From positions 1 through 41,091 of IMG/VR virus record IMGVR_UViG_3300035703_000179: a stretch of 41,091 bases of DNA. One strand, 5' to 3'. The stretch comes from a virus. Of this stretch, positions 1-41,091 are shown one piece after another. The notes under the pieces are model-generated. The model searched no databases. It was not told the origin of the DNA and saw only the letters and a list, made by a program, of their open reading frames with translations. The position numbers and the translations under genes were made by a program. Numbering within the stretch: position 1 is the stretch's first letter; every line of letters begins with the position of its first letter.

Positions 1-6
1 CTATAG

Positions 7-30
7 AAGACCCGTTCAAACGGGTCTTTT
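7..30. terminator. Rho-independent terminator-like hairpin in the left repeat copy
   Basis: AAGACCCG pairs with CGGGTCTT around a short loop, and the right arm runs into TTTT. The flanking A and T residues would let it act in both directions. The same hairpin is unchanged in the right repeat copy (40754-40777). Confidence 0.7.
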
Positions 31-83
31 CCGAGTGGGTTGGGAAAGTATTTTCCCAGACCCCCTCTCTTTATGCGTACGAT

Positions 84-97
84 GTGACGTAGGTCAC
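84..97. promoter_or_regulatory. Dyad symmetric site GTGAC-N4-GTCAC
   Basis: The left copy reads GTGACGTAGGTCAC, with one break in symmetry; the right copy at 40831 reads GTGACGTACGTCAC and is a perfect 14-bp palindrome. Such dyads suit a dimeric DNA-binding protein. The binder is unknown. Confidence 0.45.
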
Positions 98-350
98 ACT
101 TTCCGAGGAGTACTTTCAGTACTCTGAGGGGGGGATTAAATATAACAGAAAATTATTATGGGAGTATATATATACATACAAACGCGTTTTTAATAAACCT
201 CGGGTCAAAGATGCGCATTTATGCGCTTATTGTGCGTGTTATTGAGTGCATGAATGAATTGTGAATGAGTAACTCTCTCCATGAGAGTTTCATAAATGAT
301 TTCCCCCGTTAATAAATAAATAAATGCAGCGCAAATAGTTAGGCGATAGA

Positions 351-2368: not shown

Positions 2369-3625
2369 ATGACAGATAAAGTTGATGAAGTTGTTTTACA
2401 CAGTTGTTCGGTATGTGAATACGAAACTGATGCAGACAACTTAATCACGACAGATTACGATAGTCTGGTGTGTGATGATTGCGCCCAGATTTGCCAGCGT
2501 TGCGACAGTGTTGGTACATCCAATGATGTCTTTCACACAGTAGACGACGACTCTTTATGGTGTGAGTCGTGTACCGAGAGGCGTGCCTATTGGTGCGAGT
2601 CATGCGAGGGGTACAACTCTGATACCTCGTACTATGTCACAGATAGGGCTGAGCATTGGTGTGCAGATTGCTGTGATAACAATGCTTACTGGTGTGATGA
2701 TTGCGACGAGTATAATGCTGACGGCTGTGACAGATGCGGTAGCGAGGATGGTATCCGTATCATCCATGATTACAGTTACCGCCCTGATGCTATCTTCCAT
2801 TCGACCAGTAATGATGAGCGTTTATTCTTTGGGCTAGAGATTGAGGTAGAAGCACGCGACAACCTCAGAGAGTCTGCCGAGTACGCACACCAACTGGAGT
2901 CAATGGACTTAGCCTATCTCAAACATGACGGCTCTCTCAATAGTGGCTTCGAGATAGTCACGCATCCAATGTCACATGACTTCTTCAAGCATGAGGCTGG
3001 AGACTTCTTTGCAGTACTGGAAGCCTTGCGTACTCAATCAGGTATCCGAGTTAAGTCATGGGATACTCGTACCTGTGGCTTACACATCCACATCTCACGC
3101 ACTGGGTTTAAGAATGGCGCACACATGCACCGCTTCCTCAACCTTGTGTATTCTAATCAGGAACTATACGAAACCCTAGCAGGTCGCTCATCTGAACAAT
3201 GGGCTAAGTTCACTGACATCAATGTACGCGAGTACAAGCGCGACGAAAATGGTGAGCGTATCTTTAACATGGATTATGGTTACGAGATTACCACCAAGCG
3301 TTCCTTTGCGCACAAGTTACAACCCGACCACCACTCCGACCGATACTCAGCGGTTAATACAAACAACCGCGAGACACTTGAGATGCGTATCTTCCGAGGT
3401 ACTGTCAATGGTGAGACAATCAAAGCCCATCTAGACTTAGCGCACGCCAGCGTTGAGTACACCCGCAATCTTACTGTGCAAGATGTACTGCAAGGTGCAT
3501 TGAGTGCAGATAACTTCATGTGGTATGTATTCCAGAATGAAGTGTTGTATCCAGAACTATCAGCCCGTCTCGATAAGTTAGTAATTAGCGGTCGGCTAGC
3601 CGACCAGAAAGTGAGCACCATCTAA
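2369..3625 (+). CDS. Zinc-finger amidoligase (COOH-NH2 ligase family)
   Basis: Residues 13-123 form a cysteine-rich array of repeated CxxC pairs, enough for about five zinc sites. Residues 150-365 carry the amidoligase hallmarks: FGLEIEVE (154-161), HDGSL (186-190), HIHIS (239-243), RYSAVN (325-330) and EMRIFRGT (338-345). Known relatives (glutamine-synthetase-like fold) are predicted to join carboxyl and amino groups using ATP, often beside a glutamine amidotransferase, exactly as here. The zinc array may bind the target protein or nucleic acid (inference). The ATG follows AAGGTAAGG; the gene is driven by P4. The C terminus SGRLADQ is encoded by palindrome copy 7 and overlaps the next start by 1 nt. 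The substrate is unknown. Confidence 0.8.
   Translation: MTDKVDEVVLHSCSVCEYETDADNLITTDYDSLVCDDCAQICQRCDSVGTSNDVFHTVDDDSLWCESCTERRAYWCESCEGYNSDTSYYVTDRAEHWCADCCDNNAYWCDDCDEYNADGCDRCGSEDGIRIIHDYSYRPDAIFHSTSNDERLFFGLEIEVEARDNLRESAEYAHQLESMDLAYLKHDGSLNSGFEIVTHPMSHDFFKHEAGDFFAVLEALRTQSGIRVKSWDTRTCGLHIHISRTGFKNGAHMHRFLNLVYSNQELYETLAGRSSEQWAKFTDINVREYKRDENGERIFNMDYGYEITTKRSFAHKLQPDHHSDRYSAVNTNNRETLEMRIFRGTVNGETIKAHLDLAHASVEYTRNLTVQDVLQGALSADNFMWYVFQNEVLYPELSARLDKLVISGRLADQKVSTI
3590..3605. repeat. GGTCGGCYAGCCGACC palindrome, copy 7 (inside a gene)
   Basis: Full match, centre TA. It codes for GRLAD near the end of the amidoligase and ends 19 nt before the ATG of the amidotransferase, so it keeps the same distance to a start codon as the intergenic copies. 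Confidence 0.9.
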
Positions 3626-4461
3626 TGTGTCTACTCGTTGTAGCCTCGCCTAATTCCACGCCTCGTAAGAAGGACTTGGAATGTGCATCATGTAATAATC
3701 CGCATGGCTTTGGCTTTGCGGTAATCACGCCCAATGGAATTGTCACTGGTCGTGGTATGTCCAGCAAGAAAGTAATCAAGCAGTTCCTAGAAGTACGCAA
3801 GCAGTATCCAGATAGTTATGCTATGTTCCATGCTCGCTATGCTACGCATGGTGTCAAGAATGAGGATAACTGTCACCCATTCAAGGTGCCTAGCAATCCT
3901 GATACATACCTAGCACACAATGGTATCCTTGACATCAACATCTCAGCAGGCGACCGCAGAAGTGACACGCGTATCTTTGCAGAGGATACCTTACCTGCTA
4001 TGGGTGGTGTTGCTGCATTAGACGACGACCATGTGTGGGCTATGGTTAGCAAGTGGGCATTAGGTAGTAAGATAGTTATCTTCACCCTTGACCCTAGTGC
4101 TAAAGAGACCTGCTACATCATCAACGAGAACGCTGGTCACTGGGATGATGAGGGAATGTGGTGGTCTAACTCTACCTACAAGCAATCTGCTTGGGGCAGT
4201 TACCTAGATACACCCAGTTACTCATCTGCCGTAGCACTTAACGACAGCGGTTATGGTGCAGGTGAGCAGGCTTCATGTGCTCACTGTCTCAGTGTGGGTG
4301 AGTTAGACTCTAACCCTTACTACTGCGAGATGTGCTTTACTTGCTATGACTGCGATGGTATGTACCAAGATACTTGCCTATGCTGGACACCTGAGTCTGA
4401 CCGATACGCATACAACAAGAAAGGAAAGGTAGGTTATTACAATGACTACTTCGGCTTCTAG
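3625..4461 (+). CDS. Class II glutamine amidotransferase with zinc-ribbon tail
   Basis: The second residue is Cys, the N-terminal nucleophile exposed after removal of Met. Family motifs follow: RYATHG (71-76), LAHNG (97-100) and NENAGHW (167-173). Class II enzymes hydrolyse glutamine and pass ammonia to a partner. Residues 218-253 add a cysteine-rich zinc-binding tail (CAHC, CEMCFTCYDC, CLC), echoing that of the upstream amidoligase, so the two may share a docking target. The ATG overlaps the amidoligase stop (TAATG), which indicates coupled synthesis. The likely role is ammonia supply for amidation or peptide-bond modification by the upstream ligase. Confidence 0.8.
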   Translation: MCLLVVASPNSTPRKKDLECASCNNPHGFGFAVITPNGIVTGRGMSSKKVIKQFLEVRKQYPDSYAMFHARYATHGVKNEDNCHPFKVPSNPDTYLAHNGILDINISAGDRRSDTRIFAEDTLPAMGGVAALDDDHVWAMVSKWALGSKIVIFTLDPSAKETCYIINENAGHWDDEGMWWSNSTYKQSAWGSYLDTPSYSSAVALNDSGYGAGEQASCAHCLSVGELDSNPYYCEMCFTCYDCDGMYQDTCLCWTPESDRYAYNKKGKVGYYNDYFGF

Positions 4462-11570: not shown

Positions 11571-12188
11571 TTATTTATCCTTCTTGATAGAGAATTGACA
11601 GTACTCTGTGAGTCCGCACATGTACTGGCAACTGTTTGTGTTGGGCAAGAATATCGCGCTCTTGCGTGCGTTGTCAAATTGCGTGATTAGATATTCCATC
11701 TTGTCATAAGTGTACTCAGACAGGTCAACCATCTCCGAGACATTACTGCCACGTGACATGTAGTATGTTCCCCACTTGACTTCGATGCCGAAGGTCTGTT
11801 CAAGACCTAACTTGTAGAAGCCAAGTTGTAGACTGCTAGTTGGTGTATTCTGTGAAGTCTTGAGGTCGACAATGACCAACTCTCCGTTGACTTCGAATAC
11901 GCGGTCGATAATCATCTTGACTGCGACATTGTTGACGACAGGAGTAAGCGCAAGTTCGATTCCAGGATTGCCATCTGGTGCTATCCAGATTTTCCAATCA
12001 GGATTAGTCTTGCGCCATGCGATGTAGGCATCTACCCAACGTGGTCCTTGAGTCTGCCAGAAGTTGACATCCTCCTTGTTAGGGTTAGCCTTGGTAGCAC
12101 GACCGCCAACACGTGCATTGGTTAAGTCGGTATCACCCTTACAGACATTCCAGGATTCAGTCCATAAGTTTTGGACATCACTTATCAT
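11571..12188 (-). CDS. RecB/Cas4-like nuclease, C-terminal part
   Basis: IIDRVFEVNGELVIVDLKTSQ (93-113) carries the RecB-family metal-binding core (Asp95, Asp108, Lys110), followed by QLGFYKLGLE (121-130), the conserved Gln-Tyr motif. Cysteines C187, C191 and C197 match the distal part of the Cas4/AddB iron-sulphur site. The N-terminal part of the usual domain is missing here and is encoded by the preceding 63-aa frame, which overlaps by ATGA. Together they make one nuclease, likely a 5'-3' exonuclease in recombination or DNA processing. Confidence 0.75.
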   Translation of the reverse strand: MISDVQNLWTESWNVCKGDTDLTNARVGGRATKANPNKEDVNFWQTQGPRWVDAYIAWRKTNPDWKIWIAPDGNPGIELALTPVVNNVAVKMIIDRVFEVNGELVIVDLKTSQNTPTSSLQLGFYKLGLEQTFGIEVKWGTYYMSRGSNVSEMVDLSEYTYDKMEYLITQFDNARKSAIFLPNTNSCQYMCGLTEYCQFSIKKDK

Positions 12189-36384: not shown

Positions 36385-36951
36385 CTACTTAAATTGTCTA
36401 AATGTATGAATTGGTTCAGAGCACATGTTATCATATTGGATTGCGATAGCAATTGCTTTACGAATCATTGTCTCTGCTTGATTAACTGTCTTTACTTTTT
36501 CCACACCCAACGCTGCCAATGCACCGAGGGCGACATCACCACCGCTACCCATAACATATACATTACGAACATCGGTATCCCAAGAGTAATCATCAGAAAT
36601 CGAGAAAACTTGTCCCTTAATGGAAACGAGGAATCCACCTTCGTTTTGCGCAACATCGCCGTCCTCTTTCATGTCAATACCTGCATCAACAAAGTTCTTA
36701 CGCATCTGCGGAATGAACTTCTGTGTCATGTAAGTATTCAAATCTTCTTTTACAGTTGGCTTAGGTTGAGTATAGCCATAATGTAATACGTTGCTTGCGC
36801 GAGATGAACCACAACCAGCAATCAATACACCATTGTTTTCTACAATCTTTGGTGTCTTGCTTACTTGAAAACGACCATGCTCATCGCTTAATCGGGAATC
36901 ACATCCTAGTACCGACCATCCGTCACCCTGTATCGCTACCAAAGTAGTCAT
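36385..36951 (-). CDS. Proteasome/HslV-like Ntn hydrolase, likely prohead protease
   Basis: Residues 2-9 (TTLVAIQG) expose an N-terminal Thr after Met removal, the proteasome nucleophile. Asp18 (CDSRLS) and Lys35 (KTPKIV) match the Asp17/Lys33 pair of the proteasome beta site, AGCGSS (45-50) the substrate-binding strand, and VMGSGGDVALGALAAL (133-148) the HslV Gly-rich helix start. No ATPase partner is encoded. The position between portal and capsid genes, where phages normally keep the maturation protease, and the lack of any other protease point to prohead processing. Confidence 0.75.
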   Translation of the reverse strand: MTTLVAIQGDGWSVLGCDSRLSDEHGRFQVSKTPKIVENNGVLIAGCGSSRASNVLHYGYTQPKPTVKEDLNTYMTQKFIPQMRKNFVDAGIDMKEDGDVAQNEGGFLVSIKGQVFSISDDYSWDTDVRNVYVMGSGGDVALGALAALGVEKVKTVNQAETMIRKAIAIAIQYDNMCSEPIHTFRQFK

Positions 36952-38738: not shown

Positions 38739-40604
38739 CTAACTGTATTGTTGTGACCACTGGTCAGCGAATGCGTCATCTAAGTTGATTGCGTATCTGC
38801 GTTCAACCTGAGCGCGTGTCGCCCATCTATTATTTGCGTACTGTGTTGCTTGGCTTGAGCGTTGCATCATTTCTCTGATACGAATCACTGCAAACCATAA
38901 AGCCATAACAACGTCAGTTGGGTTCTTAGTGTCTGGCTTCCAAGTAATAAGTTCTTGTACTAAGGTCTTCAGACCTTCAGAGCCTTCGTTACTTGGTAGT
39001 TCAATAATGTTGTTATCCTGGAAACGACCATCACGGGTATTGCCAAAGAGTGTAGCCATAGAAGCCACACCGAAGGATGTGTCCCACTTGTTCTTGCCAG
39101 TAAAGTGTGAGTTCAGTTGCGTGCCGTAGCCAGCAAGGAAGTTACGCAAGTTATCATCCAGGGCGTAAGCCTTCTGGTGTGCGTTAATTTCAATACGCAG
39201 TTCTTGCGGTCTATACTTCTCAACCCAGTCCTCGATGAGATTCTGAATCTTGGCAGGAGTTGGCTCTGTCATATTGACAGCATCTAGAACGTAGATACGC
39301 CCATCTGCTCTGTTGTAGGTACATACTACCGCACCTGTAGCACCTGCCATAGCAGGGTCAAGTCCGATGATGGTATAACCTTCAACATGCTGGGGATGTC
39401 CTGGAGCACCTGGTTTTAGAGGTCCTCTTTTTCGCATTCCGTTGACTGAGCCAGCCACACAGGTTGGAGAGAATATTGAGTCTTCTTGGACATCTTCCTG
39501 CTGGTAGACCATAGCCCAAACTGACGGAGCGACCTCAGAGCGACGCTTAAAGAGCGAGGGTCCGTCCCATTTCGGGTATAATCCATTTTCAAGTACGTCG
39601 TCCAAATCGTTTTCTTGCTGGTCAGTTTCTGGCCAGAGGGTTTGCCAATTCTTAGGTTTTTCGTCAAACTGCAATACGGCAGGCATAGCACAATATGTAA
39701 AGGGGGTTTTGCCACCTGTCCATTGTGAGCCATCTCGTATCATCTTGTACAGGTCAACAGAGGCTACACGGGTACCAACTATGATTAGTTTACCGTGTCG
39801 TCCCAAACGGGTTATAACTTCCTTTTGCAACCACTCAATTTGTTTTTCCCACTCATGAGCGTTAGAACCCATCACCACGTCATCTAGGATAATTAAATCT
39901 GCACGTGCTCCGTAAATCTGAGAACCAAAGCCCAGTGCTTGGACTGTAGGGTCCTTTTCACCTGAGTCACGTCCTGTGCCTAGATAAATCATATCGGCGG
40001 ACCATTGTGTTGCGTCCGCCTTGTACCCACCGTTAGGACCGAAAGCGGTCTGTAGTTTCATGTAGCCTGGGTGGGAAAGGCGCGTCTTAATAGCGCCTAG
40101 GAACTTGCGAGCCATACCCTGGGTTTTAGAAACGATAATTACTCGCGTATTAGGGTTGGTCACAATCTTATATGTCACATAGTTAGTTGTGATAGTTGTT
40201 GACTTGGCGTGCTCTGGTGGTACGTTGATGAGCACACGGTTAGGGTCTCCCATCTCGTAGGTCATACCAGGCGGTAGCCAACGAGGGGTCTTACCCTCAA
40301 TGAGGTCAATCCAGTTCAGTTGGTGGTTAAATAACTTAGAACCAAGGAACTGCTCTGAGAACTCATGAAAAGGCATATCCTTAAGTTCTGCTAAATCCTG
40401 TTTAATGCCCTTGCCTGCAAGGCGGGCTTTATCAGCCTTTTCCTTGAACTCAGCATCTTGCATAGACCACTGGCGGAAGGCTGTGTCCTGACGGTCCACG
40501 GCGGCCATAGCGGCTGTAATAGTGGCACCCTGTTCTAGGAGGGCTAGTACTTTAGCCTGTGCCTCATCCTTACTAAAGGACTGTTTTCCTGCTTTGCGAC
40601 CCAT
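38739..40604 (-). CDS. terL: Large terminase with fused N-terminal HTH
   Basis: Residues 10-63 form an HTH-like unit (ATITAAMAAVDRQDTAFRQW) resembling the DNA-recognition part of small terminases. The motor follows: Walker A-like PPEHAKSTT (129-137) and Walker B LIILDD (237-242), with a coupling motif GTRVASVD (277-284). The nuclease domain shows IIGLDPAMAG (412-421), an EIN motif (about 476) and a late Asp in DVVMALW. The enzyme cuts concatemers and pumps DNA into proheads. No separate small-terminase gene is found, so the HTH may replace it. First gene of the late operon. Confidence 0.85.
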   Translation of the reverse strand: MGRKAGKQSFSKDEAQAKVLALLEQGATITAAMAAVDRQDTAFRQWSMQDAEFKEKADKARLAGKGIKQDLAELKDMPFHEFSEQFLGSKLFNHQLNWIDLIEGKTPRWLPPGMTYEMGDPNRVLINVPPEHAKSTTITTNYVTYKIVTNPNTRVIIVSKTQGMARKFLGAIKTRLSHPGYMKLQTAFGPNGGYKADATQWSADMIYLGTGRDSGEKDPTVQALGFGSQIYGARADLIILDDVVMGSNAHEWEKQIEWLQKEVITRLGRHGKLIIVGTRVASVDLYKMIRDGSQWTGGKTPFTYCAMPAVLQFDEKPKNWQTLWPETDQQENDLDDVLENGLYPKWDGPSLFKRRSEVAPSVWAMVYQQEDVQEDSIFSPTCVAGSVNGMRKRGPLKPGAPGHPQHVEGYTIIGLDPAMAGATGAVVCTYNRADGRIYVLDAVNMTEPTPAKIQNLIEDWVEKYRPQELRIEINAHQKAYALDDNLRNFLAGYGTQLNSHFTGKNKWDTSFGVASMATLFGNTRDGRFQDNNIIELPSNEGSEGLKTLVQELITWKPDTKNPTDVVMALWFAVIRIREMMQRSSQATQYANNRWATRAQVERRYAINLDDAFADQWSQQYS

Positions 40605-40747
40605 TATATATCCCGTCCAATAACGCCGATTTAACGCCTCTTAGAAACGGCATAACTATCCCATTTTGATAAAAAATTCAAAAATTATATTATATATAGG
40701 AGGAGCGGAGTCTTAAACGGAGCGACTCCGTATATATTATCTATATA
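40605..40747. promoter_or_regulatory. Late-operon promoter region
   Basis: AT-rich gene-free DNA upstream of the terminase. On the minus strand TTGAAT (40681-40676), 17 nt and TAGTTA (40658-40653) make a weak sigma-70-like promoter; the -10 lacks the final T. TATAAT-like A/T runs lie just upstream. On the circular map this region adjoins the 344-bp repeat. Confidence 0.4.
40706..40730. repeat. Inverted repeat CGGAGTC / GACTCCG
   Basis: Perfect 7-bp arms flank an 11-nt loop that itself contains CGGAG, so two pairings with CTCCG compete. It lies between the late promoter and the right copy of the 344-bp repeat. Possible operator or terminator-like element. Confidence 0.5.
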
Positions 40748-40753
40748 CTATAG

Positions 40754-40777
40754 AAGACCCGTTCAAACGGGTCTTTT
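40754..40777. terminator. Terminator-like hairpin in the right repeat copy
   Basis: Identical to the hairpin at 7-30 (AAGACCCG/CGGGTCTT followed by TTTT). It separates the leftward late promoter region from the rest of the repeat. Confidence 0.7.
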
Positions 40778-40830
40778 CCGAGTGGGTTGGGAAAGTATTT
40801 TCCCAGACCCCCTTTCTGTATGCGTACGAT

Positions 40831-40844
40831 GTGACGTACGTCAC
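40831..40844. promoter_or_regulatory. Perfect palindrome GTGACGTACGTCAC
   Basis: A 14-bp perfect dyad at the same place as the imperfect one in the left copy. It is a candidate binding site for a dimeric regulator or replication protein. Confidence 0.45.
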
Positions 40845-41091
40845 ACTGTCCGAGGAGTACTTTTAGTACTCTGAGGGGGGGATTAAATATAACAGAAAAT
40901 TATTATGGGAGTATATATATACATACAAACGCGTTTTTAATAAACCTCGGGTCAAAAGGCGCATGATTGCGCCATGTCTGGTGCGTTATTGTGTGCATGA
41001 ATGAATTGTGAATGAGTAACTCTCTCCATGAGAGTTTCATAAATGATTTCCCCCGTTAATAAATAAATAAATGCAGCGCAAATAGTTAGGC

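Follow-up and report, generated by a model that had tools for sequence, protein, structure and literature searches.

The window, that is, the whole stretch of DNA analysed here, is an IMG/VR virus record of 41,091 bases that we read as one genome-length contig. In addition to the large terminase subunit (terL), portal and major head proteins were identified in it. The terminal stretch of the window is a noncoding gap, extending from the start of terL to the first rightward open frame (459). Adjoining the portal gene, the protein encoded at 36385-36951 (- strand) matches Proteasome-subunit in Pfam with E = 9e-06, which passes the curated cut-off, and may be a head maturation protease. Elsewhere, neighbouring frames at 2369-4461 (+ strand) look like those for an amidoligase (E = 4e-10 to phrog_2443) and, with a score under the Pfam cut-off, for a glutamine amidotransferase, and 11571-12188 (- strand) encodes a PD-(D/E)XK nuclease that matches the Cas4 family.

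Within the phage collection the closest entries are OX376640 and OX376641, the cultured Planktophila phages LanE43-AprE7 (E7) and LanE43-AprF5 (F5), whose hosts belong to the freshwater actinobacterial order 'Ca. Nanopelagicales' (PMC10202952). The two phages share 82.5% DNA identity with the window across 44-45% of its right half, and the window terminase is 84.6% identical to the terminases of both. Judged on the terminase and the right-half DNA match, the window phage appears to belong with the Planktophila E7/F5 family. Coordinates of the features discussed below are collected in the table.

Features of the terL-upstream region and its surroundings in the window (a slash between coordinates marks a junction)
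Feature	Position	Strand	Basis or remark
Terminase large subunit (terL)	38739-40604	-	phrog_38, E = 8.6e-65; Terminase_6C; the gap upstream is the repeated region
Left copy, terL-upstream noncoding region (strain allele L)	1-344	+	Direct comparison
Right copy, terL-upstream noncoding region (strain allele R)	40748-41091	+	Direct comparison
Hairpin GACCCGT-TCAA-ACGGGTC	9-26; right copy 40756-40773	+	Almost invariant in relatives
Hairpin GGGAAA-GTAT-TTTCCC	42-57; right copy 40789-40804	+	A-U pair changed to G-C in 10 relatives
Dyad TGTGAC-GTAG-GTCACA	83-98; right copy 40830-40845, centre GTAC	+	All 41 sequences keep the stem; the centre varies
Hairpin GGAGTACT/AGTACTCT	107-125; right copy 40854-40872	+	Both sides changed in L063
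Hypervariable block, allele L (36 bp)	210-245	+	Direct comparison; hairpin GCGCA-TTTA-TGCGC, inverted repeat GCGCAT/ATGCGC at 213-226
Hypervariable block, allele R	40957-40992	+	Direct comparison; hairpin GGCGCA-TGAT-TGCGCC at 40958-40973
Exact 99-base match to the final 99 bases of the window (40993-41091)	246-344	+	Putative assembler k-mer joint
Candidate DNA end	273/274, also 41020/41021	.	Contigs of seven relatives stop exactly there
Invariant hairpin in the terL spacer, upstream of the repeat	40705-40731	+	Alignment of relatives

An earlier note on this DNA had described 344-bp repeats at its two ends that differ at about five scattered bases and in one patch, with a hairpin kept in both versions of the patch, and direct comparison bears out this description. 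In a gapless alignment the 344-base ends show 28 differences, namely, at 67, 71, 92, 101 and 117, and at 23 positions inside the block 210-245, leaving exact runs between the copies at 1-66, 118-209 (92 bases) and 246-344 (99 bases). All five scattered substitutions lie outside stems, a number too small to carry meaning. The note had also held a dyad at 84 to be perfect in the right copy only. An uninterrupted palindrome is indeed confined to that copy, but the six-pair stem is present in both, since in TGTGAC-GTA(G/C)-GTCACA the sole difference between the copies, base 92, sits in the four-base centre.

To see how the region is arranged in related phages, we retrieved 80 viral contigs with related terminases. 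Those spanning the gap have the order terL, spacer, a single copy of the region and the rightward genes. A search of whole records (n = 16) found a single match in 14 of them, and in the other two (G005 and G015) the second match covers only 23-27 bases. E7 and F5 carry the region once each, and their ends do not overlap. The sites at which the window copies differ vary among the relatives as well, and few parts of the region are less conserved than the 210-245 block. The initial 30 bases of the allele L block are those found in two relatives (L007 and L008), and a close variant of the allele R block is present in two others (L006 and L182). When E7 and F5 are compared with each other (L084:35956-36575 and L085:22032-22651), near-identical flanks enclose, at the place of the 210-245 block, an unrelated block that ends at the motif GAC/TATC. 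One contig (L060:1-399) has a second, partial terL start with spacer, which lies about 2.3 kb from the full copy in that contig and is 90% identical to it; this is either a chimera or a real duplication.

Across 41 sequences the upstream part of the region is almost unchanging and folds as separate hairpins. The earlier note had proposed to look for covariation in related contigs, and compensatory changes were found in the GGGAAA hairpin (10 sequences) and in the GGAGTACT stem, where one pair is altered on both sides in L063. Beneath the doubled ends there is a genuine structured element, conserved and present once per genome unit, with one hypervariable hairpin. No Rfam family reached its gathering score anywhere in the window; a weak match to rsmX (E = 0.04), far under its gathering score, was set aside. 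Promoter-like matches in the region were close to shuffle level, and terminator-like matches, above that level, are accounted for by the hairpins themselves. The end region had no DNA match in phage records.

The patch hairpin does not stay at one position in the alignment and is for this reason absent from the RNAalifold consensus. Pairing in the block was therefore tested by shuffling and by fusing half of one allele to half of another. The 29 distinct alleles have a mean stem score of 10.7 compared with 6.5 after shuffling, and none of the 2,000 shuffles reached 10.7. Joined halves of different alleles scored 8.2, and again none of 2,000 reached the real mean. These two tests do not fully remove shared ancestry and do not distinguish DNA from RNA pairing. 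A strong patch stem is present in 16 of the 29 distinct alleles and missing from 13. The claim that conserved pairing shows the structure to matter finds support at the family level, where stems are kept or compensated, but does not extend to every allele, and pairing in the block appears to be favoured, not obligatory.

The non-identical terminal repeat is very probably an artefact of closing a contig across mixed strains. The genome unit would carry the noncoding region once, flanked by the leftward terminase gene and the first of the rightward genes. On this reading the assembler would have overshot the full circle slightly, traversing the region at the right end along the sequence of one strain, and would have halted at a 99-base word common to a second strain, whose version had opened the contig. 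The differences between the copies would then be those between two strain alleles, an explanation whose checkable predictions were borne out. The contig stops directly after its final 99 bases, which match the left copy exactly. The authors of CheckV found that terminal repeat lengths have peaks, for instance at 55, 77 and 99, which they ascribed to the assembler k (PMC8116208). The exact end match thus equals one of the assembler k-mer lengths listed in the CheckV paper (99). The window overlap resembles the CheckV cases in its exact run at a reported k, but is longer than k and contains a strain-divergent stretch, so that its ends are not identical. Where relatives close at another point of the genome, the overlaps are plain and exact, mostly of 123 or 127 bases. 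Two relatives, G004 and G005, have non-identical terminal overlaps at other genome positions (652 bp, 94% identity, exact terminal run of 124, and 949 bp, 91% identity, exact terminal run of 127, respectively). In both, the terL gap lies in mid-contig, and a non-identical overlap is therefore not peculiar to the terL-upstream region. Strain heterogeneity is a documented hindrance to viral assembly. One point speaks against the mixing of strains, namely, that the 66 identical bases at the left end correspond to no k-mer joint. In a distant full-length relative (G018; L290, L291) the ends have exactly 100 bases in common, in the same terL-upstream region, and its right end, past the 100-base match, enters a G-rich tail resembling a sequencing artefact.

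The earlier note had offered mixed strains in the assembly or two maintained variants as the cause of the differences. The single copy in relatives, the 99-base signature, the equivalent artefact in G004 and G005 and the occurrence of both alleles as population variants strongly support the former. That the phage itself maintains terminal repeats of two kinds, each end having its own variant, is barely credible: the deposited contig does show such ends and the hairpin is kept in both versions, but relatives, including the cultured E7 and F5, have a single copy, and the 99-base suffix and the artefacts in G004 and G005 count against this reading as well. Moreover, terminal repeats are identical when packaged from concatemers. 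A different alternative is a genuine direct terminal repeat, covering roughly 1-273 and identical within a strain, with the window merely joining two strains. Contigs that halt at 273 from the terminase side agree with such a repeat, as do the few left-side contigs that start upstream of 273, at about -5, 1, 12, 121 and 163. However, these left starts are scattered, several of them about one k-mer ahead of 273, as assembly predicts, and in a short-read graph a collapsed repeat should not leave a dead end at 273, making a repeat of this kind unlikely. The window resembles T7-type direct terminal repeats in the terminal position of its copies and in their comparable length range, but the copies differ from each other (28 differences) where those of the T7 type are identical, relatives have a single copy, and there is no fixed left end.

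The halts at 273 bear on the real termini of the genome, a matter compatible with strain mixing as the cause of the copy differences. Seven relatives from separate metagenomes (L003, L012, L013, L017, L034, L035 and L037) stop exactly at 273 on the terminase side, and two more (L006 and L144) stop 3-4 bases past it. The motif [AG]AC/TATC at 273/274 is kept amid variable sequence, both in the relatives and in the sister clade, and the divergence between E7 and F5 ends at this motif. Strain branching was considered as a cause of the exact stop and rejected: relatives whose sequence continues past the site almost always have T as the following base, so branching fails to explain the stop and a DNA end is the better reading. 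We regard 273/274 as a candidate packaging cut; of the role in packaging or replication that the earlier note had suggested, it is the sole hint. That it is cos-like, with the region cut once per genome and without a long repeat, is a possibility we hold tentatively, since none of the few left-type contigs sampled starts at 274, and sister-clade contigs run past their version of the site, none stopping there. As in the cos sites of tailed phages, the candidate cut lies in noncoding DNA beside the terminase, at a motif that is short and conserved; the difference is that the cut is here proposed from contig ends and that no small terminase was identified. The Planktophila phages E7 and F5 (PMC10202952) share the hairpin-rich gap with its GAC/TATC motif, but have a single copy per isolate and a longer variable block of other sequence.

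The likeliest role of the region would be both that of the packaging start, with a cos-like cut and hairpins recognised by the terminase or a partner, and that of the upstream leader of terL, a proposal to which we give somewhat less than an even chance. It is rather improbable, though conceivable, that the block, which lies between the conserved hairpins and the candidate cut, is a strain-specific recognition element for the start of packaging or replication, exchanged by block replacement that keeps the fold, in which case co-occurring strains of freshwater actinophages would have no packaging signals in common. A 'repeat' at the ends of a viral contig may be a strain-mixed overlap, which an exact suffix of k-mer length can reveal, and should not pass for a genome terminus. 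The candidate packaging cut beside terL, for its part, can be tested in the cultured relatives.
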